A DNA stretch of 41,054 bases from Bacteriovoracaceae bacterium (GCA_020631435.1 JAHDHG010000003.1:1-41054), one strand, 5' to 3'; shown: positions 141 through 18,355, counted from the first letter of the stretch. Notes: generated by a model from the sequence alone, not told the origin. A program made the numbers and translations.

Positions 141-1052
141 TTACCAGCTTGCCCCTGAATTATTACTACCTGGATTAAACCAGCACAGAGGCCTAACCCC
201 AATGGCATCACCATTACTTCTAGAGCAAGTCCCTATATTGGGATCATCTTTATCGACCACAATATTATAATCAACGTCACATAAAGCACCTGCAAAATAA
301 GTATCTAAGCGACACTGAGGTTTAGGATGGTTATGCTTAGTTCTTTTAGCAATTTTTTCAGAAGGAGTATCAAATTTAGGAATAATTTTTCGATTGAAAC
401 TTATATTTTGCAAAAGTTTTGCAGTGCTAAGCCCAGCCATAGCACTTCTATAACAAAGAGATTGATTCTTTTTAGACTTGAAGTTTTTATAACATTCTTC
501 TTTAGCGATCTTAATATGAGACAAGTTTAGAGCTGCAAGACTCTTTTCTCTTTCATTCATTATTTTAAAGTTATCATCGTCTTTAAAAACTCTTCTTAAG
601 CATTTTAAACTGGCCCAATAATCTGATTGTCCTTCATTGCTTGCCCAAATTCTAACAAGCTGATGCATTTTCTTTCTTGGTGATCCACCAATATGATGAC
701 CTATTTCATGGCATAAAATAGCGTAAGTAGAATCCATTGTGTTGTCCTCGTGCCTAGCTAAACCGCCTAAAAATTGAACCTGAAAAATACTTTTTCCATT
801 TTCTACAGTTCTTGAAGCAAAAGCATTAACTTGATCATTTTCCCAAGAGTTAAAAATTCTTAACTCAGCATCGAAATCATTTTTAATAATTTCAGAATAA
901 ATAGAAAAAACTTTTTGAATTGCTAAGTCTAAATTCTTTCTTGATATACCTGTATTAAGAGTAGACCTTCTTATTTGCTTGCTATCGGGAGCAAAGATAC
1001 AAATATTTTGAGAAAAAGAAAGAATTGAAAAAAATAAAATAAAAGATTTCAT
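141..1052 (-). CDS. exported HExxH zinc metalloprotease, paralogue 3 of 3
   Basis: Probable secreted or periplasmic zinc metallopeptidase of 303 residues. The likely mature start follows a short signal peptide (MKSFILFFSILSFS). HEIGH near residues 115-119 gives the two His ligands and catalytic Glu. EGQSDYWA near 140 fits the ExxxD third-ligand motif of M48-like peptidases. Several Cys recur in all three paralogues (LCHE, LKCLRR, CRLDTYFAGALC, CSR/CWF), suggesting shared disulfides. The ORF track start at 1085 would translate through a terminator hairpin (MGSCIYCSCFF) and spoil the signal peptide, so I prefer the ATG at 1052, although it lacks a Shine-Dalgarno sequence. It is last in the protease cluster and closest to the copy at 1108-2061. 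The substrate is unknown; degradation of host, prey or environmental protein is a guess. Confidence 0.8.
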   Translation of the reverse strand: MKSFILFFSILSFSQNICIFAPDSKQIRRSTLNTGISRKNLDLAIQKVFSIYSEIIKNDFDAELRIFNSWENDQVNAFASRTVENGKSIFQVQFLGGLARHEDNTMDSTYAILCHEIGHHIGGSPRKKMHQLVRIWASNEGQSDYWASLKCLRRVFKDDDNFKIMNEREKSLAALNLSHIKIAKEECYKNFKSKKNQSLCYRSAMAGLSTAKLLQNISFNRKIIPKFDTPSEKIAKRTKHNHPKPQCRLDTYFAGALCDVDYNIVVDKDDPNIGTCSRSNGDAIGVRPLCWFNPGSNNSGASW

Positions 1053-1080
1053 AAAAAAACAGCTGCAATAAATGCAGCTG
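1053..1080 (-). terminator. intrinsic terminator between metalloprotease paralogues
   Basis: On the minus strand an 8-bp perfect stem CAGCTGCA/TGCAGCTG with a TTTAT loop is followed at once by seven T residues, 27 bases after the stop codon of the 1108-2061 gene. This is a standard Rho-independent terminator. It ends exactly at the ATG (1052) of the next gene, so transcription of that gene needs read-through or a promoter that places its start near the hairpin; a TATAAT lies just upstream at about 1094-1099. Confidence 0.8.
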
Positions 1081-1107
1081 CCCATTCAAATTAATTATAA
1101 GTGTTTA

Positions 1108-2061
1108 TTACCAACCAGCACCACCACCAGAATTTCCATTCGTTGGATTAAACCAACAAGAAGGCCTAACCCCAATAGTATCACCATTTAACTTAGAGCA
1201 TGCTCCAATATTTGGATCATCTGTATCTACATCTACCAAATAATCAACGTCACAAATAGCTCCTGCAAAATATGTATCTAATCTACACTGTGGTGCTGGG
1301 TGATTATGATTAGTTCTTCTAACAGATTTACTAGAAGGTGTTTCAAATTTTGGAAGGTCTTTATCAGATACATTTCCACCTAAAGATTTTAATAATCTAG
1401 CAGTACTATAACCTGCCATTGCCGCTCTATAACATAGTGATTGCTCTTTAGACTTAGTAAACTTCTCATTACACTTTTCTTTTGCAATCTTATTAACTGG
1501 TGACTTAACTTTCATTTCTTCGGTCATATCACCAGACTTATGAAGTTCTTCTCTAGCTTTCATAATTTCTTTATTGTTCATATCTTTAAATACTCTTCTT
1601 AAGCATTTTAAGGTTGCCCAATAATCTGATTGTCCTTCATTACTTGCCCAAGAATTTGCACCAAATCGACCACCTTTTCTAGGAGAACCACCAATATGAT
1701 GACCAATTTCATGACATAAAACTGCATAAACTGCATCTAAATTATTTGCCTTATGTCGAGCAAGGCCACCTAGATATTCTACATGAAAGACATTTTGTCC
1801 GCCTTCTTTCGTTCTTTTAGCAAATGCATTAGCAGTAGAACTTTTCCAATTATTTACAATCTTAAGTTTTGCATCAAACTCTTTTTCAATAATAGGACCA
1901 TAAACCTTCTTCACATCTTCAACAGCTTTTTTTACATCATCCTCAGCTACTCCAGTCTTTTCTTCAGGACCAATTTCTATATTACTCTCTGGAGCAAAGA
2001 CACATAAAGTTTCAGAAAATGCATTACTCAAAAAGAGTAACGATATCATTAATAGTTTCAT
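1108..2061 (-). CDS. exported HExxH zinc metalloprotease, paralogue 2 of 3
   Basis: A 317-residue exported metallopeptidase. I chose the start at 2061 (MKLLMISLLFLSNAFS) because it gives a clean signal peptide and has AAGGGGAG about 7 bases upstream; the longer ORF start at 2097 would bury the signal sequence. HEIGH lies near residues 117-121 and EGQSD near 142-146, the HExxH...ExxxD layout of M48-like gluzincins. It shares long identical stretches with the 141-1052 protein (for example YLGGLARH, NEGQSDYWA, CRLDTYFAGA), so the two look like a recent duplication, while 2460-3506 is more distant. It ends in a Gly-rich GGGAGW tail. The gene is followed directly by an intrinsic terminator. The family is recognised by motif only; the substrate is not known. 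Confidence 0.85.
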   Translation of the reverse strand: MKLLMISLLFLSNAFSETLCVFAPESNIEIGPEEKTGVAEDDVKKAVEDVKKVYGPIIEKEFDAKLKIVNNWKSSTANAFAKRTKEGGQNVFHVEYLGGLARHKANNLDAVYAVLCHEIGHHIGGSPRKGGRFGANSWASNEGQSDYWATLKCLRRVFKDMNNKEIMKAREELHKSGDMTEEMKVKSPVNKIAKEKCNEKFTKSKEQSLCYRAAMAGYSTARLLKSLGGNVSDKDLPKFETPSSKSVRRTNHNHPAPQCRLDTYFAGAICDVDYLVDVDTDDPNIGACSKLNGDTIGVRPSCWFNPTNGNSGGGAGW

Positions 2062-2080
2062 TTTATTTCTCCCCTTAAAA

Positions 2081-2455
2081 TTAAATGAACATTTCATTTA
2101 TAGAATGATTACAAAATAAATATCTAAAGTCGTCAGTAACTGTTTGAAAATTTAACTTTTTTATTTCTAATTTATTTTTATCGATAAAAATAATCTCTAA
2201 ACCCTTTGAATCATTGATTATTGATTTAGAATTTTTATTAATTTCTACTGTGTCATTAAAAACTTCTTGCGCACCAGCAAAAGTAATATTAGTTAAAACA
2301 GCTTTAAGATTACTAGTCAGAGTTAAATTAAATCCAGCATCTGCAAACTGAGGATCTGGCTTACATATTAGTTTTTTATTTTTAAAAGAAAGAGAGCTGC
2401 TATTGCAACTCTCTAAGCTAAGTAAAGCTATTAAAAATAGAATTACCTTTGTCAT
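2081..2455 (-). CDS. small putative lipoprotein in the metalloprotease cluster
   Basis: A 124-residue protein with a lipoprotein signal peptide: a hydrophobic stretch ending in LESC, a plausible lipobox with Cys17. The rest is Asn/Lys-rich with alternating hydrophobic residues, suggesting a small beta-rich domain; two further Cys (LIC, LFC) could form a disulfide. It lies 4 bases after the stop of metalloprotease 2460-3506 and about 20 bases before the start of the next one, so it should be co-transcribed with them. No family is recognised. An inhibitor, chaperone or anchoring partner for the proteases is conceivable from context but nothing in the sequence shows it. Confidence 0.65.
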   Translation of the reverse strand: MTKVILFLIALLSLESCNSSSLSFKNKKLICKPDPQFADAGFNLTLTSNLKAVLTNITFAGAQEVFNDTVEINKNSKSIINDSKGLEIIFIDKNKLEIKKLNFQTVTDDFRYLFCNHSINEMFI

Positions 2456-2459
2456 TTAA

Positions 2460-3506
2460 TTAGAAATATACTTCGACTTGACCTTCTTTGATACTAGAAG
2501 GGATCGTATTCATCAACCAAGAAGCGCCTTCACCTGGTTTATACCAACATCTGCTTCTTACACCTTCTTGGTTACCTCTATTAGTTTTCAATCTATTACA
2601 AACACCAGTGTTTGAGTCTGATTGTGAAACCTTTTCATCGTAAGATAAAATACATAAGGCACCCGCAAGATATGTATCCAATCTACATTGAGCTTCAGGA
2701 TGTGAAGAAAAAGTTCTGTCTACTTTTGATGAATCAGGAGTATCGAATTCTGGGAAATCAGGATCATTTCCTGAACCATCAGCTCTTGCAGCTGCTAGCA
2801 TTCTAGCAGTAGAAAGTGCTCCCATTGCAGCTCTTGTACAAAGAGCTACATCATCAACGTTGTCATAAACTGCTTCACATTTATTTACAACGTATTTAGA
2901 AACATTAGTCTTTCTCTTTTCAATTACATTTGTTGCATTTTTAAACTGCTTAAATCTTTCAGATAAAATCTTAACGTTATCATATTTTTCGTAAACTCTT
3001 TTAGCACACTTCATGGAAGCCCAGTAATCAGACTGACCTTCCACTGAAGACCAAGAGCTTCTACCGAAAAAACCAACATTTTTAGGAGCTCCACCAACAT
3101 GATGACCAATTTCATGACATAAAACAGTAACTAAGCCATCGACAGTCATTTCAGGATGTCTAGCTAGTCCACCCCAGATCTCTACATAGTATTCATTAGA
3201 AAAAAATGCTCTTCTTGCAAAAGCGTTAACTCTTTCATCTTTCCAATTGTTTACAATCTCAAGTATTCCACCAAATTCATCTTTAATTACCGGAGCATAA
3301 ACTTCATACACAGCAGCAATCACTTTATCCGTAGTCTCTTTTGATAAACCTGGAGTAGCAATAGTTCTTGATTTAAATTTTACAGCTGGAACCTTTAAAT
3401 CATTTTCAGGCAAGAACCCTTCACATAAATGTGAGCTATGATGAACAAATCCAATACTTAAAATTGAAATAGCTAAGATCGAAATCTTTATCCGTAAACC
3501 TTTCAT
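2460..3506 (-). CDS. exported HExxH zinc metalloprotease, paralogue 1 of 3
   Basis: A 348-residue exported metallopeptidase and first gene of the cluster. It has an N-terminal signal or anchor segment (about residues 7-22). HEIGHH spans residues 131-136 and VEGQSDYWAS begins near 155, the zinc-binding and third-ligand motifs. It shares the framework of the two downstream copies (VNNWK.., VNAFARR, GGLARHP, CRLDTYLAGALC) but is more diverged and has a longer C-terminus beyond the conserved CWYKPG. An AGGAGGG Shine-Dalgarno lies about 3-9 bases before the ATG, the best in the cluster, so strong translation is expected. It probably heads a transcript covering 3506 to 1108. Confidence 0.85.
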   Translation of the reverse strand: MKGLRIKISILAISILSIGFVHHSSHLCEGFLPENDLKVPAVKFKSRTIATPGLSKETTDKVIAAVYEVYAPVIKDEFGGILEIVNNWKDERVNAFARRAFFSNEYYVEIWGGLARHPEMTVDGLVTVLCHEIGHHVGGAPKNVGFFGRSSWSSVEGQSDYWASMKCAKRVYEKYDNVKILSERFKQFKNATNVIEKRKTNVSKYVVNKCEAVYDNVDDVALCTRAAMGALSTARMLAAARADGSGNDPDFPEFDTPDSSKVDRTFSSHPEAQCRLDTYLAGALCILSYDEKVSQSDSNTGVCNRLKTNRGNQEGVRSRCWYKPGEGASWLMNTIPSSIKEGQVEVYF

Positions 3507-4227: not shown

Positions 4228-4425
4228 TTACTTACCGTGTCTTTTATCGTCTTTGATATAAATAAACAATTTAAGAACAACAAAGAAAACCATTAAAAAT
4301 AAAATTAATCCCCAAGTAGGAACCATTGTTTGGCTATACTCTACTGTCTCATGTTGCTTTCCAGGAAAGATTGGATGATAAGGACCAATATCTTTTTTTA
4401 CTACTTGATTAGTTTCTCCACTCAT
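4228..4425 (-). CDS. 65-residue single-helix membrane protein at the end of the oxidase operon
   Basis: A small protein with a hydrophilic N-terminus (about 35 residues, Pro/His-containing) and one transmembrane helix (WGLILFLMVFFVVLKLFIYI), ending in a charged KDDKRHGK tail. Its ATG overlaps the stop of the subunit IV gene (TAATG), so it is translationally coupled to the oxidase genes. No family is recognised. By position and size it is probably a small accessory subunit or assembly factor of the terminal oxidase, analogous to CcoQ-type peptides, but that is inferred from context only. Confidence 0.7.
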   Translation of the reverse strand: MSGETNQVVKKDIGPYHPIFPGKQHETVEYSQTMVPTWGLILFLMVFFVVLKLFIYIKDDKRHGK

Positions 4426-4703
4426 TACCTAGCTCCTGTTTCTAGCATTAACACCACAGCATAAATAAATGCAGAAATTGGGATTAATGCAATAAATTGC
4501 AACCATCTAGACTCAAATTCTAAATGCATATAATACCAACCTACTAAGCCGGCTTTAATAACAGCTAACATAGAAAGAGAACTTGCATGCCAAAAATATG
4601 ATAAAGGCATCTCTGGAACTGCGATCTCTATTGCAGTTAAAACTGCTAAAGCAAAAAAGATCCACATATATTTTTTAGTGTGAGAATGTGCTCCTTCGGC
4701 CAT
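4425..4703 (-). CDS. cytochrome c oxidase subunit IV (prokaryotic type)
   Basis: A 92-residue membrane protein with three hydrophobic helices (about 13-30, 39-58, 68-88). The segment AVIKAGLVGWYYMHLEFES closely fits the bacterial COX4/CyoD-like family, where a His lies in the second helix. The subunit stabilises the haem-copper oxidase core and is not catalytic. The gene lies 3 bases after SCO and overlaps the next small gene by one base, inside the oxidase operon. Confidence 0.88.
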   Translation of the reverse strand: MAEGAHSHTKKYMWIFFALAVLTAIEIAVPEMPLSYFWHASSLSMLAVIKAGLVGWYYMHLEFESRWLQFIALIPISAFIYAVVLMLETGAR

Positions 4704-4706
4704 AAA

Positions 4707-5375
4707 CTACTCCTTAACCTTATGAATTAGCTTATTAACTACTAACCCTAAGTCAATCATCATTTTATTAATATCGTCTTTTGTTTTTGAATATATTGAT
4801 CTAATTCTTCCTTCCTGATCAACTAAAAAAAATCTTTCAGAATGAGCTATGTCATACATAGATCCAGATTCTTCTTTATCTCCAACTGCAACTTTAAATC
4901 CATTGGTAATAAGATCATTTAATTTTTCTTCTGAGCCAGTCAAAAATTTCCAAACAAATGGGTTCGCTTTAATTTCTCTTGCATGTTGAAATAATTTTTT
5001 TGGCACATCTGTTTCAGGGTCAACAGTAAAAGAAACAATCGCAACTTTTGTCCCCAAACCCTTAATTCTTTTTTGTATAACTTTGGTCTCTTTCATTATT
5101 TCAGGACAGATTGTTGGGCAACTAGTGAAATGAAAGTTTGCAATATAAGGCTTACCTTTTAACTCCTTAGAACCAAAACTATCCCCGTTTTCATCAAGTA
5201 ATTCAAACTCAGGTAGTTGATAAAGAATTGGGAGAGGTGGAGGAAGTTCTCTATTTAAAGTTCTAACTATTGGAATTCCAAACAAGACAATACTAGCAAT
5301 TATCCAAAACCAAGGTTTAATTAAAAGCTTTTCAATAAAATTGTTCTGTCTTAGACCTTCAACGCTTGAATTCAT
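4707..5375 (-). CDS. SCO1/SenC-type copper chaperone
   Basis: A 222-residue membrane-anchored thioredoxin-fold protein that loads or reduces the CuA centre of cytochrome oxidase subunit II. A transmembrane helix lies at about residues 20-38. FHFTSCPTICPEI carries the CxxxC copper motif (Cys86, Cys90), and the third ligand His is in DIAHSERFFLVD. VSFTVDPETD is also characteristic of the family. Its start overlaps the stop of the dihaem cytochrome (TAATG). Placement beside subunits I, II and III fits CuA maturation. Confidence 0.93.
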   Translation of the reverse strand: MNSSVEGLRQNNFIEKLLIKPWFWIIASIVLFGIPIVRTLNRELPPPLPILYQLPEFELLDENGDSFGSKELKGKPYIANFHFTSCPTICPEIMKETKVIQKRIKGLGTKVAIVSFTVDPETDVPKKLFQHAREIKANPFVWKFLTGSEEKLNDLITNGFKVAVGDKEESGSMYDIAHSERFFLVDQEGRIRSIYSKTKDDINKMMIDLGLVVNKLIHKVKE

Positions 5376-6268
5376 TATTTAAAAAGTACCTTTTTTCTTT
5401 CTTCTTTACCTCTCATATCCATAAGATATTTTACATAATAAGACACGGCCCAAATCTCATGATCAGCTATAGTTTCTTTCCAAGCCGGCATACCAGTACC
5501 AGTTACACCTGCAGCTAATCTATAGGCTATATCTTCAACAGATGAAGCTGATCTTATTTTATGCCAAGTAAAATCAGGTGGAAGAAACTTCATCATTCTC
5601 TCTTCAGAATCATAAAAATAGTACTCAGATACCTGAAGCTTTGGTTGATATAAATCTTCGTCAAATTCATCTAAAGGTTCTCCATTATATTTTTCATTTA
5701 ATAAAGAAAGTTCATCTTTTGAGATATATGCTTTATGGCAGGTCTGACAATTTGCTAACATGTGATAAACCTCTTTACCCTTTGCTATTGCAGACTCTTT
5801 TCTTGCTATAGTAAATGGATCTTCTTCTAATTCAACAGGCTTCCCTACACTTCCATCTTTCACTTCCCAAACTTGAGGAGCAAAAGTTTTAATATATTGA
5901 GTAACAGCATAAGTTTGATCATCTGAGATATCCCACTTAAGCATTGCAGTTCCACTTAGACCATGTTTAATAATTCTTTTAAAGTCTTCATCTGTTGGTA
6001 GCTCACCATCTGCAACTAATCCGAATTTATACAAACCTTGCTTAAAATTTCTTGGAGCTGGAATCGATCCTTTAGCTGCTGGTCCATTTCCATCTCCTTC
6101 TCTACCGTGACATGCCATACAGTATTCAAGATAAACTTGCTTACCAAGGTTTAGCACATGTGCAGGAACTTTTTGATTGCCAACAAAAACCTTAGCTTGC
6201 TTAAAGCTTTCATTATCACCAGAGCAAGAAATAAGAAAAAACAGAAAAACAAAAATTGATATCTTCAT
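5375..6268 (-). CDS. dihaem c-type cytochrome lipoprotein
   Basis: A 297-residue lipoprotein with two class I cytochrome c domains. The signal peptide ends in LISC (lipobox, Cys15). Haem motif 1 is CMACH at about residue 50, with likely Met ligand in GTAMLKW; haem motif 2 is CQTCH at about 174, with Met in GTGMPAW. The architecture resembles dihaem electron carriers found with oxidases. The ORF track starts at a TTG; the ATG at 6268 follows an AAGG and gives the better signal peptide. It follows subunit III in the operon. As subunit II here lacks a fused cytochrome c domain, this lipoprotein is a good candidate for the direct electron donor to CuA, or for a docked oxidase subunit. Confidence 0.88.
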   Translation of the reverse strand: MKISIFVFLFFLISCSGDNESFKQAKVFVGNQKVPAHVLNLGKQVYLEYCMACHGREGDGNGPAAKGSIPAPRNFKQGLYKFGLVADGELPTDEDFKRIIKHGLSGTAMLKWDISDDQTYAVTQYIKTFAPQVWEVKDGSVGKPVELEEDPFTIARKESAIAKGKEVYHMLANCQTCHKAYISKDELSLLNEKYNGEPLDEFDEDLYQPKLQVSEYYFYDSEERMMKFLPPDFTWHKIRSASSVEDIAYRLAAGVTGTGMPAWKETIADHEIWAVSYYVKYLMDMRGKEERKKVLFK

Positions 6269-6278
6269 TATCAAAACC

Positions 6279-6848
6279 TTAAAATAAGAACATTGTTAAA
6301 AACATTAAAATCCAAACAATGCCCAAAAAATGCCAAAATTGTGAAATATGTTTAATTCGCAATTTATAATCATTATTTGAAAAATATTTATTAAAATTTA
6401 AAAGAAAAAATAACGCACAAATTCCCATCACTATATGAGCTGCATGTACCCAAGTAAATCCATGTAAAATTGATGAAAAAGTACCAGAACTTACAACTAA
6501 ACCAACATCATTCATATGAGACCAAAGCATCTTCTGAGAAACTAAAAATGCTATTCCAAGAACTATCGTTGTATATAAATTTATTTTTGCTTCTTTTTCA
6601 CTTTTCAAATTAAAAAATGTGGAAAAACGATGAAGGGTAAAACTACTAATCAAAATAAAAATAGTACTTAAACCAGGCCAAAGCATAGAGACAGATTCAA
6701 AGCCCATCGGAGGCCAATTCACTTCTTTAAATCTCAAGAGAGCATAAGATAAGAAAAGTGAAGCAAACAACATCACCCATGAGACCATTAAGATAGTAAA
6801 AGCTATCTCTTTAGGATGTTTCATATTTGATGTAGAGATTTTCTCCAT
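6279..6848 (-). CDS. cytochrome c oxidase subunit III family protein, second copy
   Basis: A 189-residue protein with about five transmembrane helices. It belongs to the haem-copper oxidase subunit III family: early EIAFTILMVSWVMLFASLF, then HGFTWVHAAHIVMGI and the terminal FWHFLGIVWILMFL. The last two are counterparts of GFHGLHVLTGVIYL and FWHFVDLVWILVF in the other subunit III of this operon (11397-12008). It starts at the base after the stop of subunit I. Two divergent subunit III genes in one operon is unusual: either both are in the enzyme, one replacing missing helices, or they are alternates. Sequence similarity between the two is low outside these motifs. Confidence 0.85.
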   Translation of the reverse strand: MEKISTSNMKHPKEIAFTILMVSWVMLFASLFLSYALLRFKEVNWPPMGFESVSMLWPGLSTIFILISSFTLHRFSTFFNLKSEKEAKINLYTTIVLGIAFLVSQKMLWSHMNDVGLVVSSGTFSSILHGFTWVHAAHIVMGICALFFLLNFNKYFSNNDYKLRIKHISQFWHFLGIVWILMFLTMFLF

Positions 6849-8570
6849 CTATGCAAGTTCCTCTGTCTGGTATTGAAAATCTTTTCCTTCAGGTAAATTT
6901 GGATTTCCAAATTCATGAGGTCCACATTTAACTGTAGGTATTTCTTCAAAGTTATAATGGATAGGAGGAGAAGGAATTGTCCATTCCAAAGTCCCAACGT
7001 TCCAAGGATTTTGAGGAGCTTTTTTTCCTTTATAAAGTGAATATACAAAATTCCAAACAAAAGGTAATTGTCCAACACCCATTAATAAAGCTGAGTAAGT
7101 GATAAATTTATTGATAGGTATTAACTTTTCAAGAAATTCATAAACAAATGGGTTGTAAAGTCTTCTATGCATTCCAGCGAATCCAACAACCATCATTCCC
7201 ATGAATACTCCATTAAGACCAATCATAGTTAACCAAAAATGAATTTTGGCCAATGTTTCATCCATCATTCTTCCAAACATCTTTGGAAACCAAAAATAAG
7301 TTGCAGCATAACCACCAAGTAAAACAGAAGCTGCCATTGTGTAATGGAAATGACCAACTACAAAATATGTATCATGTAGATATAAATCAGTTGAGACTGT
7401 TCCTAAATATAGACCTGTTAACCCACCTAAACCAAAAACAAAAACCACTCCTAAAGAGAATAACATTGGGGAATCAAATCTAATTGATCCTTTGTATATA
7501 GTTCCAAGCCAGTTAGCGAATAAAATCGCTGATGGAATTGAGATAGTCATCGTCAAGGTCATAAATGTTTGAGTTAACAAGGGACTCATCTGAGTCGTAA
7601 ACATATGGTGACCATAAACAAGTGTTGAAAGAATAGTAATCGTTGTCATAGAAAGAGCTGTTGCTTTTGCCCCAAAAGCAGGCTTTCTAGCAAAAAATGA
7701 AAGAAGGTCAGATACTATTCCCCAAGCAGGTAAAATTAGAATATAAACTTCTGGGTGACCAAAAATCCAAAACACATGTTGAAATAAAATTGGATCACCT
7801 GATCCAGAAGTAGCAGCTGCTCCAGCTAAGAAAAATGTAGTCCCAAAAACTCTATCAAAAGTTAGAAGCATTACACCTGCTCCTAAAACTGGAAGAAAGA
7901 TTGCATTTAAAATTGCAGTTAACCAAAGACCCCATATTGTAAGAGGCATATCAAAGTAGCCCATACCTGGAGCTCTAAAACAAATAACAGTAGTTATATA
8001 ATTTACTGCACCCATGGTTGAACTAATACCAAGAACAAAGATCGATAAACACCAAAGGGTTTGTCCTGATCCAGGACTTCCGACCAAAGTAGAAAGAGTT
8101 GGATACGATGTCCATCCACCTGCAGCACCTCCTAGAGGTGTAAATAAAGATGCCATTAATAAAACACCAGAAACAACTGCAATGTGAAATGAGAGCATAT
8201 TAAATAAAGGAAATGCCATATCTCTTGCACCAATCATTAGAGGAATACAATAATTCCCAAATGCACCAATCAAGATGGGCGTGATGGCAAAGAAAATCAT
8301 AATCGTTCCATGCAAAGTAAATAACATAGAATATGTATCTGGAGGAACTACTCCATCAGTATGAGGAAATAACAGATGGCCTAAAACAGGAAAAGCTTCT
8401 CCTGGAAAAGCTAATGTCCATCTAATTAAAAGTGCCATCATTCCACCGACACCTAAAAAGAAAATTCCGTACCATAAAAATTGCTTACCAATTACTTTAT
8501 GGTCATATGAAAAAACATATTTACTTAAAAAAGTAGTAGGAGCTGCGTGTTTACCGTGAGCGTAAGTCAT
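6849..8570 (-). CDS. ctaD: cytochrome c oxidase subunit I (haem-copper oxidase, A-type)
   Basis: The 573-residue catalytic subunit, with about 12-13 transmembrane helices, which reduces O2 to water at the haem a3-CuB site and pumps protons. Visible hallmarks are LHGTIMIFF (low-spin haem His region), FGHPEVYILILP (CuB His, the proton-channel Glu and the Tyr crosslinked to His, the A1-type signature), YGHHMFTTQM (two CuB His) and HDTYFVVGHFHYTM (haem a3 and haem a His). The start overlaps the stop of subunit II by one base (TAATG). The C-terminus has a short soluble tail. The length is normal for a cytochrome c oxidase. No key residue is missing. Confidence 0.97.
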   Translation of the reverse strand: MTYAHGKHAAPTTFLSKYVFSYDHKVIGKQFLWYGIFFLGVGGMMALLIRWTLAFPGEAFPVLGHLLFPHTDGVVPPDTYSMLFTLHGTIMIFFAITPILIGAFGNYCIPLMIGARDMAFPLFNMLSFHIAVVSGVLLMASLFTPLGGAAGGWTSYPTLSTLVGSPGSGQTLWCLSIFVLGISSTMGAVNYITTVICFRAPGMGYFDMPLTIWGLWLTAILNAIFLPVLGAGVMLLTFDRVFGTTFFLAGAAATSGSGDPILFQHVFWIFGHPEVYILILPAWGIVSDLLSFFARKPAFGAKATALSMTTITILSTLVYGHHMFTTQMSPLLTQTFMTLTMTISIPSAILFANWLGTIYKGSIRFDSPMLFSLGVVFVFGLGGLTGLYLGTVSTDLYLHDTYFVVGHFHYTMAASVLLGGYAATYFWFPKMFGRMMDETLAKIHFWLTMIGLNGVFMGMMVVGFAGMHRRLYNPFVYEFLEKLIPINKFITYSALLMGVGQLPFVWNFVYSLYKGKKAPQNPWNVGTLEWTIPSPPIHYNFEEIPTVKCGPHEFGNPNLPEGKDFQYQTEELA

Positions 8571-9382
8571 TAGTTGTTCTCCTTCATCACAACAGAATCA
8601 TCTGAATTAGAGTTGTTGGCCATATCATCACCCATATCCCAAGACCAACCCCAGTAATTATCAATATTTTCAGTATCATTTCCTACTTTCGCTAACTCTT
8701 CGGCCTCAGCTTTCCAAGCAGCATAACTTTCAGGAGAATGAACATGAAGTTTTGCTTTCATCATATAATGATGTGTTCCACACATCTCAGCACAGGCAAT
8801 ATCAAAGGTTCCAACTTTCGTTGGTTGAAACCACATTCTAGAAATTCTTCCAGGCATTGCATCAACTTTTATTCTAGCATTTGGAAAAAAGAATGAATGG
8901 ATAACATCTTTCGAAGTAATTCTAAATTCAACTTTTTTGCCTACAGGAATGTGGAGGTCATGATTAGTTAGAACATCATCAGCTGTATTAAATTTTCCAT
9001 CTGCTCCAGCATGTCTAAAATTCCACATCCATTGCTGAGCTAAAACCTGAACTCTAGTAATATCTTCACCTTTTTTAGGAAAATTCCAGAATTCATTAAT
9101 CATGTCATCGTTAGACATTCTTGTAATATTTAAATCAATAACAAAGAATACCAAAATACCAATAATCAATGTTGCTTTAAGTTGTTTCTTTCTATTTCCA
9201 TAAGTGTAATCAACTTTGGAATTTCTTTTTGCACTATATTTATATGAAAACCAAAATAGGCCGTAACATACAAAAGCAAAAAAGATGACGACCATCACAG
9301 TTGTATATGTGAATAGTTCATCAACTAAATGTCCATTAGTAGAAATGATTTCAGGAGGAGCTATTCTTTCTAAAAAACCCAT
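8570..9382 (-). CDS. ctaC: cytochrome c oxidase subunit II with CuA site
   Basis: A 270-residue protein with two N-terminal transmembrane helices (about 25-45 and 72-87) and a periplasmic cupredoxin domain. The CuA signature CAEMCGTHHYMM is intact and the first CuA His is in KDVIHSFFFP. It therefore accepts electrons from a cytochrome c and is a cytochrome c oxidase and not a quinol oxidase. There is no C-terminal CxxCH, so it is not the fused caa3 form; the nearby dihaem lipoprotein or the octahaem cytochrome must deliver electrons. The C-terminus is acidic and Asn-rich. No cleavable signal sequence is obvious; the N-terminus (MGFLERIAPPE) is short. Confidence 0.96.
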   Translation of the reverse strand: MGFLERIAPPEIISTNGHLVDELFTYTTVMVVIFFAFVCYGLFWFSYKYSAKRNSKVDYTYGNRKKQLKATLIIGILVFFVIDLNITRMSNDDMINEFWNFPKKGEDITRVQVLAQQWMWNFRHAGADGKFNTADDVLTNHDLHIPVGKKVEFRITSKDVIHSFFFPNARIKVDAMPGRISRMWFQPTKVGTFDIACAEMCGTHHYMMKAKLHVHSPESYAAWKAEAEELAKVGNDTENIDNYWGWSWDMGDDMANNSNSDDSVVMKENN

Positions 9383-9391
9383 AATTATTCC

Positions 9392-11197
9392 TTAATTAAA
9401 AAGTCCTATCATTAAACCCATCTGCACAGGCAAATAAATTAAAGTACTTAAAAAATATTTTCTGGCCCAAGGTTTATATGATTTTGTTTTAAATCCCTGA
9501 GTCGCTAAATAAATTGAGAAACCACCCAATAAAAAAGTACCAACTAAATAAAGTGGACTTTTAGTTAAGTATACGAAGTAAGGTAATGCTGAAATAGACA
9601 CTAAAGCTAATGTATAACCGAAGATTTGTTTAACAGTACTCGGGTCACCTGAAGTATTTGGAAAAACTTTAAAGCCAGCCCCCTCATAATCTTCTTTATA
9701 TCTCATAGATATCGCCATGAAATGTGGTATTTGCCATAAGAAAAGAAGTAAAAAGAGAATTACCCCTAATACTTGTATTTCATTTGTAACAATGGTGTGT
9801 CCCATTAAAGGAGGCATTGCACCAGGAATGGCTCCTACAAAGACTGCATAAGAACTTACTTTTTTGAATGGAGTATAAAATAAAACATAAAATAAAGTAG
9901 CAATCACTCCAAGGATTGCAGTTAATTCATTTGTAAATTTATAAAGACCAGCTACTGAGATAACACAAAGAAATAATCCAAAAATAAAAGCTACACTTGG
10001 ATGAACTCTTTTGCTCGCAAGAGGTCTATTAGCAGTCCTTTCCATTTTTGCATCAATATCTCTTTCTAAATAGCAGTTTAATGTACAAGCACCAGCAACT
10101 AATAAAGTAGTAAAAAATATTCCCAAGACTCCAGTTACCATGGATACATTTCCGTTAGAAAGAAACATTCCAATACCGGCAGTAAAAATTACCAAACTCG
10201 AAAGTCTTGGCTTAGACATAGAAAATACATCAAATAAAAAATCATACTTCTTTGATTTAAACTCAATATTCTTCTCAACCCATGATATTTCTAAAAATAG
10301 TTTCCAAGATAAAATAAAGATTAATGCAGCACCCCCAAGGTGAAGAGTTGTTGCTGCTATTCCAAGATTAGTAGCTATTGAAAGCAGTCCCAATTTAATT
10401 TGAAATAAAATTAAAAAAGGAAGAGCTATTAATTTAAATCTGATCGAATTGTTAAATTGATAGTTTTCTTTTCTAAATGTTTTTAGAAAAGTAAAAACAC
10501 AATAGAGCAGGTAGGCTGTAATGAGATACGCAAAATATCGATGACCCATGTGATACATTGCTTGAAAAGAATTTGGAAAAAATGATTTTGCGCCAGTAGT
10601 TAGATCTAAACATGAAAATGCATTGGCCCAGCTTGTTCCACAAACACTTCCTAGACCAAGATGTCTCATGCTAGCACCAATAATCATTTGAGCATAAACG
10701 ACGAACAATAAAATCAAAGAGTGCTTTTTTATACTCATATTCCAAGATGATTTAGATTTAACTTCGAAATTTGAATTATTGTTAAGTTGAATAAGGTGTA
10801 AAATGTAAACAATAGATGCAAAAAAGATCATAGAAAGACCTAGATGCATTGTAGATATAACTGTTGGAAGTTTATAAATAACAGTCAATCCACCTAGAGT
10901 TCCCTGAACAATAACTAATAACAAAGAAAAAAGTGAAAATTTGAATATTCTACTTTTAGATCCAAAATTCTTAAAAGAAAAAAAAGAAATTAATATAGTA
11001 AGAAACCCAACAAGAGCACCCATTAATCGATGTGAGTGTTCAATAAGAATCCCACCCTCCATCTTTGGCATAATTTTACCGTAACAAAGTGGCCAATCTG
11101 GGCAAGCTAATGATGAACCTGTGTTATGAACAAAGCCTCCGAGATTAATCAAACAAAATGTAATAAACAAAGTGAGATAAATTAAGTACTTAAGCAT
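9392..11197 (-). CDS. fused haem A synthase-haem O synthase (CtaA-CtaB)
   Basis: A 601-residue polytopic protein joining two successive enzymes of haem A biosynthesis. Residues about 1-305 are CtaA/Cox15: GGFVHNTGSSLACPDWPLC near the N-terminus with a Cys pair (32, 38), and haem-ligand His in EHSHRLMG, HLGLS, YHMGHRYF and LHLGG. Residues about 325-601 are CtaB/Cox10, a UbiA-family farnesyltransferase: SKPRLSSLVIFTAG, then the prenyl-diphosphate motif NCYLERDIDAKMERT and NRPLAS. CtaB makes haem O from haem B and CtaA oxidises it to haem A, so fusion allows channelling. The order of domains is opposite to the order of reactions. The gene sits between oxidase subunits, which fits supply of haem a to subunit I. 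Confidence 0.92.
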   Translation of the reverse strand: MLKYLIYLTLFITFCLINLGGFVHNTGSSLACPDWPLCYGKIMPKMEGGILIEHSHRLMGALVGFLTILISFFSFKNFGSKSRIFKFSLFSLLLVIVQGTLGGLTVIYKLPTVISTMHLGLSMIFFASIVYILHLIQLNNNSNFEVKSKSSWNMSIKKHSLILLFVVYAQMIIGASMRHLGLGSVCGTSWANAFSCLDLTTGAKSFFPNSFQAMYHMGHRYFAYLITAYLLYCVFTFLKTFRKENYQFNNSIRFKLIALPFLILFQIKLGLLSIATNLGIAATTLHLGGAALIFILSWKLFLEISWVEKNIEFKSKKYDFLFDVFSMSKPRLSSLVIFTAGIGMFLSNGNVSMVTGVLGIFFTTLLVAGACTLNCYLERDIDAKMERTANRPLASKRVHPSVAFIFGLFLCVISVAGLYKFTNELTAILGVIATLFYVLFYTPFKKVSSYAVFVGAIPGAMPPLMGHTIVTNEIQVLGVILFLLLFLWQIPHFMAISMRYKEDYEGAGFKVFPNTSGDPSTVKQIFGYTLALVSISALPYFVYLTKSPLYLVGTFLLGGFSIYLATQGFKTKSYKPWARKYFLSTLIYLPVQMGLMIGLFN

Positions 11198-11396: not shown

Positions 11397-12008
11397 TTAT
11401 AATAAATAAATAAAAGTAAATACAAGAATCCAGACAAGATCAACAAAGTGCCAAAACAATCCTAAGACTTCTAGATTACCGTAATTACCATTATCATATT
11501 TGCCCTCATAGGCATTTTTATATTCACAAATCAGATAAATCACACCAGTAAGAACATGAAGACCATGGAAACCTGTAACCATGTAAAATGTAGACCCAAA
11601 TAAATTCTGCCCATTGATAAATTCTTGTAAGCTAAGTCCAAGATGAACTAAATGTTGATATTCATATACTTGGATACATAAGAAAATCGCACCCCCAATG
11701 ATTGTCACTAATAACCATTGAAGCATCTTCTCTCTTCGCTTTAATCTACAAGCATCAATCGCTAGTACCATAGAAACTGAAGAGCAAATTAGTAAAAATG
11801 TTGCAAAACCTGAAAGGGCAATCCCTAAATGATCTGCTGGTGTAGGCCAAGTTTTTGAAGATCTTAAAACTGCATAAGCAATTAAAAATCCCGAGAAGCT
11901 CATCGCATCCGTCACCAAGAATATCCACATTGCAATTTTTCCAGGTGAAGCCTTTCCAAATTGAGGATCAACATGATTAGGGTTTAATAATTTATATCCA
12001 GAAGCCAT
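11397..12008 (-). CDS. ctaE: cytochrome c oxidase subunit III
   Basis: A 203-residue protein with five transmembrane helices. Family hallmarks are KIAMWIFLVTDAMSFSGFL at the start, STFYMVTGFHGLHVLTGVIY in the middle and LFWHFVDLVWILVF at the end. This is the typical bacterial five-helix subunit III. The start overlaps the stop of the octahaem cytochrome by one base (TAATG), so the bc-type module and the oxidase module are translationally coupled. It is the better-conserved of two subunit III genes in this operon. Confidence 0.94.
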   Translation of the reverse strand: MASGYKLLNPNHVDPQFGKASPGKIAMWIFLVTDAMSFSGFLIAYAVLRSSKTWPTPADHLGIALSGFATFLLICSSVSMVLAIDACRLKRREKMLQWLLVTIIGGAIFLCIQVYEYQHLVHLGLSLQEFINGQNLFGSTFYMVTGFHGLHVLTGVIYLICEYKNAYEGKYDNGNYGNLEVLGLFWHFVDLVWILVFTFIYLL

Positions 12009-14980
12009 TATTCTTTATCCTCTGTTTTTTCTTCTTTCTTATCTGATCCAGAATTATCTTTATTTGCTTCGGTAGTTTCTTGCTTTGATACTTCAGTCTG
12101 CTTATCTTCTACTTCTTTTTTCTCAACTGCAGCACTTTCAACTTTTTTCATTTCTGACTTCACATTTCCAAGAGATAAAACAAGTTTTACCATTGCATTA
12201 ATCTGTCTTTCAGGATCATCATTTAATAATCCAGCAAGTGATTCATCATATTCTTTAGCTGGAAGAGTTCCACCCTCCCAAAAATTAGGCATTGGTGTAT
12301 ATGGCTGAATAGCAACTGGATTTTTTAACCATTTCTTAATCCAACTAGCTCTCAATCGACCTGCAGCTAAATGAAGATTTGGACCTTGGGCTTCCTCATT
12401 ATTAAATCCAATTGAATGACAACTCACACATGCAAAGCCTTCCCACATTTTTCTAGCTGCTTCTTGCTCACCTTGCTCCCAAACAACCTTAGGAGGATTC
12501 GTATAATTACTAACTCCGGCACTAGCATTAAAATATGTAATTAATTTATCAACTTCACCTGGCTCGTAATCAAATGAAGGCATTCTTACTACTAAGTAAG
12601 GTCTAATCGGTTTCACATTTTGTAAAAAGCTTTGAAACCAAGAAGGTATAACTCTATGTCCTTGATCAACTAACCATGGAGGACCAGCATTTAAATCATC
12701 TTCATAGGCTTCAGCAATATCTCCACCCATTCCATCAATCTTATGACAACCATAACAATTATACTTGTTAGCGATTTTCATTCCTTCAAGAGCAAGCTTC
12801 TCTGCGGCACTTGGATTTTTCTTTCCTGCCATAGGAATAATATGTGAAGTGAAACCAAGAATAGTAGTAGTCATAGCTTCTGCTTCATCATCACTTAAAT
12901 AAAAATTAGGCATTCTAGTTAAATCTTTAAATGGTTTAGGGACACCTTCATCCCAAATTCTTGGATTTTTTAAATGTTGGAATATCCAAGCTTCTCTTCT
13001 ATGAGGAATCTGATGTTGATGACCAAAACCAAACTGATGAACAAACTTTGATCCTACTCCGTTCCACTCAGGACCAATTGGTGGCCTGTCTTCAGCAAAA
13101 CCTTCTATATTATGACATGAATAGCATCCGTATTTACCAATACTAAGTCTTCCAAGCTCTAAAGTTCTTTCTCTTTCAGAAAGTCCCTCTAATCTTTTTT
13201 CAGCGACACTTATTGGATCAAACTGCGAGAAATAATCTCCAACTAATATTTCATCTCTAATTTTTTTATTAAGTGGCTCAAACTTAAGTGCTTCAAATTT
13301 AGGATTTTTAAGTTCAAGTAAATATGTAGCAATATCATTAGCTTCTTGTTTATTTAATCTAAACGAAGGCATGATAGTATCTTTTTGATAATGAGATGGC
13401 TTAATCAACCAAGATACTAGCCAGTTAGGATCTACTTTAGATCCTGTACCAGTAAGGTAAGGACCTTTCATCGATTTAACTTTATTATAAGGTTCATCTA
13501 TGCCTTGAACTTGATGACAAGAAATACATCCAATACCTTGAATTAATTCTTTACCTTTCTCAGCATCACCTTTTTCATATACAGCAAAAGCATTTGATTT
13601 TTGTGATTTATCATGAAGATACTCGGCCATTGCATTTACTTCAACAATGTTCTTAAGCATAAACTCTGGTTTCGAGTTATTCATCTGTCCAAAGAAAGCA
13701 GGCATTCTAGATTGTGGATTAAATGTATGTGGAGACCAAATCCAGTTTTTCATAAATTCTAAACTCACCTTAGAATTTATTTTTGTTAAGCTTGGACCTG
13801 GTTTCTTAAGATGTTCCCACCCATCAGCTTTATGGCATCCATAACAACCATAATTCTCAATAAGTTTTCTACCCTTATTGAGTTTTTCTGCCATATGTAT
13901 TCTTTCTTCGCCTGAGTGACATTTAACACAGCTTGATTCTGTATATTGAAGAGGTAACATTGGCTCTGGGATTTTATGAGGCTCATGCCAACCATATTTT
14001 TTCTTCCACTCTTTTTCTTGCTCAGCATTTTGAGGCATATGAGCTGGAGCAGAAAAATCAAAAACTCTATGCCCTTCACCACCATGACAACCAGTACAAC
14101 CAAATTCTTTAATTGGGTGAGCAGAGTCTCGACCTACTGCTAACGTATTAACGCGTGGATGAGTTTTGTAAGGATTTTCTTGATCCTCATAACCTTCAGT
14201 ACCAATAAATTTATGACAAGTCGTACATCTATCAACTTTTTTAGTCTGAACGAAATATCTATCGTCTGTAATATTATCTAAAACGATTTGATCAATTTTG
14301 ATTGTTGGATCTAAAAAATCAATGAAAGGTGAATTTCTTAAAAACCAGACAGGGGTTTTTTTAGTTTGAGACTTTGCAAAAACTAAACGGTCCTTAGTTC
14401 CAGTGAGATTACCTAACTCTTTTTCGAGAGAGCTTTTTAACTTATTAATTTCTTTTATTTTTTTGTTATAGTTCGTTTGTTGCAATTGATAAGTCTTGAG
14501 ATCATCCTTACCTTGAGAAAAAAGCTTCTTCTGCTCTTCCATTTTCTTCTTATAAATTTTTGCCTTATTCTCTTTATGATGCATATGATAATGCTCATAT
14601 TGAAATTGATACTCTCCGGCCAAAGCCCCATGAGTACCATTTGTCATGTTTTGAGCATAAATTTTCTTATCTAAAAGTGAGAGCTCTTTTTCAATAGATG
14701 CAATCTCTTTATCTTTTGAATCAATTTCTTCTTGAGCTTCTTCAATCTGTTTTTTAATTGATTCAAGTTTTTCTTTATCAATACCTTTATCTTCTTCAGC
14801 AATTCTTTTAGCTAAGACTTCTTGTTCGATTTCTAATGCCTTAACTTGGATTGCTTTCCATGGACGAATGTAATCATCAAGAAACATCCATAATGTTGCA
14901 ATCAAAAACAAGACTGACAAAAAAGCAAAAACCTTATTTAAGGTTTTTGTATTGTAATGCATTCCCGGTTCACGTTTCAT
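12008..14980 (-). CDS. membrane-anchored octahaem c-type cytochrome of the bc-oxidase operon
   Basis: A 990-residue protein. An N-terminal anchor helix (about 17-35) is followed by a long coiled-coil region (about 45-200, rich in K/E heptads). Eight CxxCH haem motifs begin near residues 252, 295, 351, 379, 485, 619, 742 and 851. The last five are spaced about 105-135 residues and each is followed by a Met-Pro (RMPAFF, IMPSFR, RMPNFY, RMPSFD, PMPNFW), the pattern of tandem class I His/Met cytochrome domains. The first three lack this and form a separate cluster. A Lys/Glu-rich tail ends the protein. No cytochrome c1 gene is present, so this protein probably accepts electrons from the Rieske protein and carries them to the oxidase as a tethered wire. 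The role is inferred from position; the haem motifs are directly visible. Confidence 0.9.
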   Translation of the reverse strand: MKREPGMHYNTKTLNKVFAFLSVLFLIATLWMFLDDYIRPWKAIQVKALEIEQEVLAKRIAEEDKGIDKEKLESIKKQIEEAQEEIDSKDKEIASIEKELSLLDKKIYAQNMTNGTHGALAGEYQFQYEHYHMHHKENKAKIYKKKMEEQKKLFSQGKDDLKTYQLQQTNYNKKIKEINKLKSSLEKELGNLTGTKDRLVFAKSQTKKTPVWFLRNSPFIDFLDPTIKIDQIVLDNITDDRYFVQTKKVDRCTTCHKFIGTEGYEDQENPYKTHPRVNTLAVGRDSAHPIKEFGCTGCHGGEGHRVFDFSAPAHMPQNAEQEKEWKKKYGWHEPHKIPEPMLPLQYTESSCVKCHSGEERIHMAEKLNKGRKLIENYGCYGCHKADGWEHLKKPGPSLTKINSKVSLEFMKNWIWSPHTFNPQSRMPAFFGQMNNSKPEFMLKNIVEVNAMAEYLHDKSQKSNAFAVYEKGDAEKGKELIQGIGCISCHQVQGIDEPYNKVKSMKGPYLTGTGSKVDPNWLVSWLIKPSHYQKDTIMPSFRLNKQEANDIATYLLELKNPKFEALKFEPLNKKIRDEILVGDYFSQFDPISVAEKRLEGLSERERTLELGRLSIGKYGCYSCHNIEGFAEDRPPIGPEWNGVGSKFVHQFGFGHQHQIPHRREAWIFQHLKNPRIWDEGVPKPFKDLTRMPNFYLSDDEAEAMTTTILGFTSHIIPMAGKKNPSAAEKLALEGMKIANKYNCYGCHKIDGMGGDIAEAYEDDLNAGPPWLVDQGHRVIPSWFQSFLQNVKPIRPYLVVRMPSFDYEPGEVDKLITYFNASAGVSNYTNPPKVVWEQGEQEAARKMWEGFACVSCHSIGFNNEEAQGPNLHLAAGRLRASWIKKWLKNPVAIQPYTPMPNFWEGGTLPAKEYDESLAGLLNDDPERQINAMVKLVLSLGNVKSEMKKVESAAVEKKEVEDKQTEVSKQETTEANKDNSGSDKKEEKTEDKE

Positions 14981-16124: not shown

Positions 16125-16907
16125 CTACAATGGTGCAGAGATACCTCCATCTTTTCTAACTCTCCAAAAGTGAACTGCAATTAAGACAGAAACAACAACT
16201 GGAATAAAAACACAGTGAAGAATATAAAATCTTAAAAGAGCAGCTTCTCCAACAAATCGGCCGCCTAAAAGTTGAAATCTAACATCGTTTTTATCACTAA
16301 CCATGACAAAATCACCGATCTTTGCAAGCATTGCTCCTGGACCACCATGACCAAGTAAAGGCGTAGCCTTTGCCATGTTAGATCCAACCGTAATCGCCCA
16401 AATTGCTAACTGATCCCACGGTAAAAGATAACCTGTAAAAGAAAGAAGCAATGTTAGTACAAGTAAAATTACACCAACACCCCAGTTAAATTCTCTAGGC
16501 GGTTTATATGAACCAGTCATGAAAACTCTAAACATATGAAGCCAAACTGTGATGACCATAGCGTGAGCTCCCCATCTATGAAGCTCTCTCATGATTCCCA
16601 AAGGCACATGTTCTCTAAGTGCAATAACGTCATTATAAGCATACTCAGCAGTAGGTCTGTAATAAAACATTAAAAGAATTCCAGTAACCGCAAGCGCCAA
16701 AAAAACAAAGAAAGTTAATCCACCCATACACCATGTATAGCCTAACTGAACTCCAGACTTTTTTAATTTAATAGGGTGAAGATGTAGAAAAACATTACCA
16801 GCAATAACTGCAGCTCTGTTTCTCGCATTATCTGGTGGACCATGTCTAAAAATAGACTTCCAAACTTGTGTCTTAGCAACTTTTTGAGCAAAACTATCTT
16901 TGGCCAT
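16125..16907 (-). CDS. cytochrome b6-type N-terminal half of split cytochrome b
   Basis: A 260-residue, four-helix dihaem subunit of a quinol:cytochrome c reductase. The haem b ligands are visible: [15 protein letters not shown] (two His 14 apart) and [18 protein letters not shown] (two His 15 apart). The 15-residue spacing is the b6f type; bc1 complexes have 14. [10 protein letters not shown] places Cys60 where b6f complexes covalently attach the extra haem c(n)/c(i), followed by the family motif FYYRPT. The end [15 protein letters not shown] also matches cytochrome b6. It lies between the Rieske gene and the C-terminal half, a standard order. Confidence 0.94.
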
Positions 16908-16918
16908 ACTTCTCTCTT

Positions 16919-17416
16919 TTAAACAACAATGAATGAGTCAGGGTGAGTCCACTCACCTTTTTCATATCTGAAAATTTTTGTCTTATCCACTATTACCTGC
17001 CCCGAAGCATCTAGGTTTACTTTATATCTTTCTAGAGGTCTCGGTGCTGGACCTTCAAAATTAATTCCGTTCGCATAATATCCAGATCCATGACATGGAC
17101 ATTTAAACTTTCTCTCCGCAGGTAACCAAGTAGGAACACATCCCAAGTGAGTGCAGATGTTTGATAGAGCTACTAACTTACCTTCGTTTTTATAAATCCA
17201 AACTCCAAAAACATTTTTCCATCTTTCATCAACACCATCATCAAAATCGTCTGGTCTTCCAGCAACAAAATCCATCGCTGGTTCGAAAACAACATTTGGA
17301 TAAAGGTATCTAAAAATTAATGAAGCCATACCACCTGCAGCAGCTGCAAAAGTGATCCATCCAACGGAGAGGAAGCTAAAAAATTCTCTTCGATTTATGG
17401 TAGTTCTTTTACTCAT
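16919..17416 (-). CDS. Rieske iron-sulfur protein
   Basis: A 165-residue membrane-anchored [2Fe-2S] subunit. A Tat-like signal ([14 protein letters not shown]) precedes the N-terminal helix, as usual for Rieske proteins exported folded. Cluster motifs are CTHLGC and CPCHGSGYY, giving two Cys and two His ligands plus the disulfide Cys pair; the conserved GPAPRPL follows. It transfers electrons from quinol at cytochrome b to the c-type haems. It is the first gene of the respiratory operon; GAAGGTG lies about 9 bases before the ATG. The 102-base gap upstream is the most likely site of the operon promoter, though no clear -35/-10 pair is seen. Confidence 0.96.
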
Positions 17417-17518: not shown

Positions 17519-18355
17519 TTACTTCAATCTTAATAGAGCCTGTTTGGCCTTTGTTTTAACTTCTTTGTTAGTCTCTGACTCAATAACTTTTTCAAGAAAT
17601 TCAACTAAATATGTTTGTCTATGAATTGCCTTAAGAATGTTCAATTTTAATGAAGTGAGTTGAGATAAATCTACATTATTCACCGATCCAAAAAATAATT
17701 TCTCAAGATGAGTATTTGGAATATTTTCTCCTTGATTCAGCAAGGCAGTAATTGAATTATATTTAGTAATAGTGTTACTAGATACGATTAGAGGTTTTAT
17801 AGATTCTTTGAGGGAAACAACTTTGTGCTTTGCGGCAAACATAAGTATAACTTGTTTAAGAGGTTCGTCATCAGAAGATAAATATTTTTTTAGGATTTCC
17901 ACATTCAAATCTTGAACTTTATCAAGCTTAGAAAGACCAATAATCGAACTATATCTAATGTTTTTATCTTCAGATGCTAAAGCACCATTTAAAAATTTAT
18001 TCGCTTTCTCATTTTCTAACGCTCCAAGCGCCAAGACTATAAAATTTCTTGTCCTTTCATCTTGCGAACTATCGTAAACCTCAGATAACTCTTGAATCAA
18101 CCAAGGGATGTCCTCACTTGGAATCTCTTCAGATGCAATATATTTAGACAAATCATAAGCAGCAACCCATCTGTTACCGAAAGTCTTAGAATTTAAATCC
18201 TGAACTAGCTTTTTATAACCAGCTGCACTTCCACTAAGCATTTTAGTAATTCCCCAAATAATTAATGCTCCCCCAACAAGAATTGCTATTGGGACCATAA
18301 AGCCTGAAGCAGGGTTTTGGATCTCATCTTTTAATGATTGTTTATTAGATTTCAT
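17519..18355 (-). CDS. membrane-anchored HEAT-repeat protein
   Basis: A 278-residue protein. A single transmembrane helix (about 20-38, VPIAILVGGALIIWGITKML) is followed by helical pairs of HEAT/armadillo type from about residue 50 to the end (for example FGNRWVAAYDLSKYI, TRNFIVLALGAL, NIRYSSIIGLSKL). Such solenoids bind partner proteins. It lies upstream of and on the same strand as the Rieske gene, with a 102-base gap. This suggests, without proving it, a scaffold or assembly role for the respiratory complex. No enzymatic motif is seen. Confidence 0.75.
   Translation of the reverse strand: MKSNKQSLKDEIQNPASGFMVPIAILVGGALIIWGITKMLSGSAAGYKKLVQDLNSKTFGNRWVAAYDLSKYIASEEIPSEDIPWLIQELSEVYDSSQDERTRNFIVLALGALENEKANKFLNGALASEDKNIRYSSIIGLSKLDKVQDLNVEILKKYLSSDDEPLKQVILMFAAKHKVVSLKESIKPLIVSSNTITKYNSITALLNQGENIPNTHLEKLFFGSVNNVDLSQLTSLKLNILKAIHRQTYLVEFLEKVIESETNKEVKTKAKQALLRLK

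Follow-up and report, generated by a model that had tools for sequence, protein, structure and literature searches.

The window analyzed here is a stretch of 41,054 nucleotides from a Bacteriovoracaceae bacterium, corresponding to contig 88 of a draft genome of 2.43 Mb that is 88% complete. Its minus strand carries genes for a Rieske/cytochrome b complex and for an aa3-type oxidase, and between these two groups lies a gene for a large cytochrome c with eight haem-binding motifs (Table 1). Upstream of the octahaem gene, the order is HEAT-repeat protein, Rieske protein, cytochrome b6, and subunit IV; on its 3′ side follow CoxIII, CtaA-CtaB, CoxII, CoxI, CoxIII, a dihaem cytochrome, Sco, and CoxIV. 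The two CoxIII-like genes of this operon differ from one another. Fusion of CtaA with CtaB has been reported in Bdellovibrio and Halobacteriovorax (PMC8239418). Elsewhere in the window, positions 141-3506 encode three adjacent, similar-looking secreted proteins, two of which were scanned and gave weak matches to M48 peptidases.

Table 1. Genes and protein segments at the octahaem locus, with positions counted from the first nucleotide of the window
Feature	Position	Strand	Remark
HEAT-repeat protein, membrane-anchored	17519..18355	(-)	
Rieske iron-sulfur protein, CTHLGC...CPCHG	16919..17416	(-)	
Cytochrome b6-like half, Cys at haem ci position	16125..16907	(-)	WCMGG vs YCLGG
Subunit IV-like cytochrome b half, 373 aa, ~8 predicted helices	14993..16114	(-)	
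Octahaem cytochrome c, 990 aa	12008..14980	(-)	very probable c subunit of Rieske/b6 complex
Membrane anchor helix, N-terminal, residues 13-38 by hydropathy, 11-37 by AlphaFold	14870..14950	(-)	hydropathy and AlphaFold
Coiled coil, residues 40-204, predicted hairpin, turn 134-136	14369..14863	(-)	AlphaFold
Three-haem module, CxxCH 252, 295, 351; extra His 274, 288, 314	13901..14368	(-)	
Five tandem class I cytochrome c domains, CxxCH 379, 485, 619, 742, 851	12161..13900	(-)	
C-terminal tail, Lys/Glu-rich, charged	12011..12160	(-)	alignment; mostly own genus
CoxIII-like gene, overlaps octahaem gene end	11397..12008	(-)	
CtaA-CtaB fusion (haem A / haem O synthase)	9392..11197	(-)	
Oxidase subunit II, complete CuA motif CAEMCGTHHYM	8570..9382	(-)	
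Oxidase subunit I	6849..8570	(-)	sole haem-copper oxidase detected in source genome
Second CoxIII-like gene	6279..6848	(-)	
Dihaem class I cytochrome c, likely lipoprotein (LISC)	5375..6274	(-)	
Sco-type copper chaperone	4707..5375	(-)	
CoxIV-like subunit	4425..4703	(-)	

The anatomy of the octahaem protein that the initial annotation had described, consisting of an anchor helix, a coiled coil, eight CxxCH motifs, and a Met-Pro after each of the last five, was borne out. All 16 of its cysteines fall within the eight motifs, and chance occurrence was rejected because the composition of the protein would predict 0.009 CxxCH motifs against the 8 present. The Met-Pro pairs behind the last five haems are at residues 426, 537, 690, 800, and 897, and most relatives lack the additional Met-Pro that stands at residue 315 in the stretch from haem 2 to haem 3. 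In Pfam, the protein matches class I cytochrome c (E 1e-21), with weak c7-like matches, and its three-haem part weakly resembles MtrC/MtrF domains at a score under the cut-off. The five C-terminal class I domains are homologous to one another, with pairwise E values of 3e-4 to 1e-11. Two familiar identities were considered and rejected, namely cytochrome c1, since the Pfam profile PF02167 had no match in the protein, and an octahaem enzyme of the HAO type, since the HAO family was absent from both the Pfam and the NCBIfam results.

The octahaem cytochrome is a real family within Bdellovibrionota. A profile built from seven homologues and run on 369 genomes of this group gave strong matches in 113, which belong to the family of the source organism and to families f13, f14, f18, and f29. 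The nearest named relatives are Bacteriovoracaceae, along with one more distant Bdellovibrionaceae MAG. Homologues from several families that appear to be full length keep the eight CxxCH motifs within ~930 to 1023 residues, and all eight motifs and the five distal methionines are invariant in 34 of 34 aligned sequences. The same gene occurs in genomes assembled into one or two contigs, on which ground an assembly artefact was rejected. A tblastn search of plasmids with the octahaem protein returned single class I domains only, and the literature that we searched, mostly outside subscription journals, held no description of the protein. The 34-sequence alignment also bears on haem ligation. 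Histidines 274, 288, and 314 are the sole invariant histidines near haems 1 to 3 outside the CxxCH motifs, and because these three and the five late methionines are invariant, we infer from the sequences that three bis-His haems are probably followed by five His/Met haems. Also invariant is His530 (window ~13391-13393), which precedes Met537 by seven residues in the second class I domain.

Structure prediction of the chain, which had been proposed in the initial annotation, was informative for the coiled coil but less so for the haem-bearing region that follows it. The AlphaFold2 model computed with 34 sequences (mean pLDDT 75, pTM 0.64) shows the coiled coil as two long helical arms broken at residues 134-136, making a hairpin more likely than a straight stalk. 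The return arm of such a hairpin would comprise 68 residues and span ~10 nm, an estimate read from helix boundaries rather than coordinates, and would turn the haem-bearing part back toward the membrane. Within the three-haem region, pLDDT was below 50 over much of residues 223-314. The best Foldseek matches to the model were coiled-coil chains (HP0958, SMC arms, and PI3K p85), none of them significant, and neither Foldseek nor a profile search of the PDB returned anything matching the whole protein.

The genes on the 5′ side of the octahaem gene have the characters of a b6-type Rieske/cytochrome b complex, including the Rieske motifs, the division of cytochrome b into b6 and subunit IV, and a Cys for haem ci. 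The WCMGG segment of the b6 half aligns with YCLGG of b6 structures, and its Cys, which is absent in one relative (L070), occupies what we take to be the site at which b6f binds haem ci. Subunit IV has KAPWY where PEWY would be expected, a substitution kept in all relatives that we read, and is long. The HEAT-repeat gene is conserved 5′ of the Rieske gene in the source family and in f18.

The order Rieske-b6-IV-octahaem is kept in the loci read, as far as the contig extends. Comparison of split-b6 profile hits with octahaem hits, leaving aside G112, for which the b6 position was unlisted, located both genes in 109 genomes; they lie less than 6 kb apart in 103 of these and on separate contigs in the remaining 6. 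This proximity, together with the conserved gene order, makes the octahaem protein very probably the c-type subunit of the b6-type complex. In the source genome, as far as the 88% complete draft extends, there is a single cytochrome b and no cytochrome c1 above the Pfam cut-off. The claim that the octahaem protein serves the bc complex as c subunit in place of c1 is thus upheld by its position beside the Rieske, b6, and IV genes, by the lack of a c1 over the cut-off, and by the presence of one cytochrome b and one oxidase, and the contrary possibility raised in the initial annotation, that homologues would lie mostly outside bc operons, is refuted by the genome counts.

How closely the octahaem gene is tied to the oxidase can be judged from the source family, in which the octahaem gene is present in 96 genomes, coxI of the source type (at least 77% identity) in 93, and both in 88. 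Among 17 genomes that have only a distant coxI (~40-47% identical), the octahaem gene is missing in 15. The distance between the starts of the two genes in the 88 genomes is below 8 kb in 16 and 8-20 kb in 35; the genes are farther apart on one contig in 2 and on separate contigs in 35, and in one genome consisting of a single contig they are 2.3 Mb apart. The genes therefore co-occur, yet a common bc-oxidase operon is not general. In several genera, the first CoxIII-like gene adjoins the octahaem gene while the main cox operon is further off.

The two-haem cytochrome encoded next to the second CoxIII, with its lipobox-like LISC sequence, follows the oxidase. Of the 93 coxI genomes, 91 have its gene, in 90 cases no more than 4 kb from coxI, and it stays by coxI even in the single-contig genome in which the octahaem gene is 2.3 Mb distant. 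Because it remains with coxI rather than with the octahaem gene, the dihaem lipoprotein is the leading candidate for the donor to CuA and most likely takes this last step in this lineage. All three cox operons read in f29 carry a gene for a two-haem cytochrome. The dihaem gene is absent from the cox operons read in f14 and f18, though these encode a CuA subunit II, and therefore a hop through the dihaem protein cannot be the general route. The source genome also encodes small class I cytochromes c, one a soluble c553-like protein of 102 aa and one an anchored monohaem protein, which have relatives in 77 of 125 genomes of the family. These small cytochromes went undetected in most g36 genomes and in the g43 genomes, the single-contig genome G104 being among those without a hit, although the short query may miss diverged relatives. 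Further dihaem proteins are encoded in the source genome, one of which, in our reading, resembles a cytochrome c peroxidase.

These observations make it very probable that the octahaem protein conducts electrons toward the oxygen-consuming enzyme, and a second small cytochrome, encoded together with the oxidase, may take the last step. We favor, with a probability of about 0.6, a relay in which the octahaem protein replaces c1, the dihaem lipoprotein is the most likely last hop, and cytochromes of the c553 type act as side carriers. Quinol would be oxidized at the Qo site of the Rieske/b6/IV complex, whose b6 half has a probable haem ci, and the three-haem module close to the membrane, with its putative bis-His haems, would receive one electron from the Rieske cluster. 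The electron would then be handed down the tandem array of five His/Met class I domains, a tethered relay, in an order and direction that we presume from the arrangement of the chain. The coiled-coil hairpin may provide an arm of ~10 nm, perhaps to hold or dock partners. The dihaem lipoprotein would in turn reduce CuA of the single aa3-type oxidase, with the soluble c553-type cytochromes standing to the side of this path. In f14 and f18, where the cox operon lacks the dihaem gene, the octahaem protein could possibly donate straight to CuA.

Direct donation everywhere, with the octahaem chain as a wire that spans the whole distance from Rieske to CuA within a fixed bc-aa3 supercomplex and makes both c1 and any mobile cytochrome c unnecessary, is in our estimate unlikely. 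The overlap of the octahaem and CoxIII genes in the genus of the source organism, with the cox operon next to them, would agree with such a wire, as would the single oxidase and the lack of a c1 over the cut-off in the genome, the CuA oxidase operons of f14 and f18 without an adjoining dihaem gene, and the many genomes with the octahaem gene in g36 and g43 in which c553-type cytochromes were undetected. It is at odds, however, with the position of the dihaem lipoprotein gene by coxI in 90 of 91 genomes regardless of where the octahaem gene lies, with the small class I cytochromes c of the source genome, and with the fact that adjacency of the octahaem gene and the cox operon is not general. 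The initial annotation had proposed one wire in place of both c1 and diffusible cytochrome c. The first half of that proposal stands, but the chain may well not reach CuA alone, as the dihaem cytochrome stays with coxI and soluble cytochromes c exist. Of the two genes that it had named as counterevidence, a separate c1 and a soluble cytochrome c, the former was not found over the cut-off, whereas small class I cytochromes c are encoded in the genome and have relatives across the family.

The octahaem protein might instead be both the c subunit and a branch point, reducing a pool of small cytochrome c that feeds reductases or peroxidases. The c553-like and anchored monohaem proteins with their relatives in the family, and the extra dihaem proteins including the one that reads as peroxidase-like, would suit such a role, but the failure to detect small cytochromes in many g36 and g43 genomes, G104 among them, speaks against it within the limits of a short query, and we regard it as distinctly improbable. 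That the eight haems chiefly store charge or serve an extracellular or outer-membrane acceptor rather than the oxidase is very improbable, since, despite the sub-threshold likeness of the three-haem part to MtrC/MtrF and the work of multihaem proteins elsewhere in extracellular electron transfer, the window operon has no other multihaem gene, and the octahaem gene is tightly linked to Rieske/b6/IV and co-occurs with one aa3 oxidase.

The relay that we favor combines elements for which there are precedents, as tethered donors are already known from QcrC and ActA and multihaem Rieske/cytochrome b complexes from anammox bacteria. The anammox complexes encoded by Kustd1480-1485 and Kuste4569-4574 (PMC12954380) appear closest in architecture when likened by gene composition and published description. 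They likewise have a split b6/IV, a Rieske protein, and a hexa- or octahaem c in place of c1 or cytochrome f. They also contain an NAD(P) oxidoreductase, and one of them an HAO-like protein, whereas the operon in the window is without an NAD(P) oxidoreductase. The description of the anammox complexes mentions no aa3 oxidase partner (PMC12954380). The octahaem system is set apart from them by its coiled-coil arm and its array of five class I domains in tandem, as well as by having an aa3 partner and being widespread across a family.

Actinobacterial QcrC, the dihaem subunit of the bcc-aa3 supercomplex, is tethered and operates without soluble cytochrome c (PMC8361435). It has two haems as compared with eight and neither a three-haem module nor a coiled coil, and the octahaem protein scores 24.6 bits against the QcrC model NF050122, well below the cut-off of 200. 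In alternative complex III (ACIII), the wire is the multihaem protein ActA, one haem domain of which is mobile, and direct transfer to aa3 has been proposed (PMC8552683); the structure of ACIII bears no relation to that of bc complexes, whereas the octahaem system has Rieske and cytochrome b. The b6f and bacterial b6-type complexes share with it the b6/subunit IV split, the haem ci Cys, and the Rieske protein, but here the octahaem c subunit takes the place of cytochrome f, to which no match was obtained. Against NCBIfam, b6 and subunit IV score toward ExtP and ExtQ of the Geobacter ext operon and a part of the octahaem protein toward ExtS, but all of these scores are below the curated cut-offs, and the ExtS model, at 262 residues, has a different architecture. 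The octahaem system suggests that the c subunit of a bc complex can grow from one haem to eight across an aerobic bacterial lineage, and it offers a testable case of the distance over which, and the carriers by which, electrons move between complexes III and IV.

Shorter cousins of the octahaem protein lie beside other terminal enzymes. At L121 and L122, the gene order is NAD(P) oxidoreductase, Rieske, an unsplit cytochrome b, a heptahaem protein of ~590 aa, ccoN, and ccoO, and no ccoP gene was found near the heptahaem genes; the heptahaem cousin is a possible bc-to-cbb3 wire. The class I domains of these proteins (L121:6146-7912 and L122:6651-8444) are CcoP-like. L123 starts in the same way and continues with a hexahaem protein (L123:6000-7787, between cytochrome b and narG/narH), narG, and narH, suggesting a bc-driven nitrate reductase. 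The NAD(P) oxidoreductase genes of all three loci, a feature they have in common with the anammox complexes, are GltD-like and stand right before the Rieske gene (L121:9928-11745, L122:2923-4692, and L123:9759-11627), a call made by profile for L121 and by sequence start for L122 and L123. Similarity between the cousins and the octahaem protein (E 5e-28 to 1e-19) covers the three-haem module plus two class I domains, and the coiled coil is missing from the hepta- and hexahaem forms. We tentatively suggest, while holding it to be somewhat doubtful, that these proteins are modular covalent wires in which an anchored three-haem module, followed by class I domains that vary in number, connects Rieske/b directly to its terminal enzyme with no mobile cytochrome c, the octahaem form leading to aa3, the heptahaem form to a cbb3-type oxidase, and the hexahaem form to NarGH; one anchored module would then be coupled to differing terminal enzymes.

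The origin of the five class I domains was addressed with a domain tree of 90 columns and moderate support. All 25 of the 25 octahaem domains group together and apart from the domains of the cousins, with a support of 0.88, and domains at the same position in different families cluster with one another. From this grouping, the five-domain array probably arose by duplication that predates the split of these families, in agreement with the duplication origin suggested for the repeated domains in the initial annotation.
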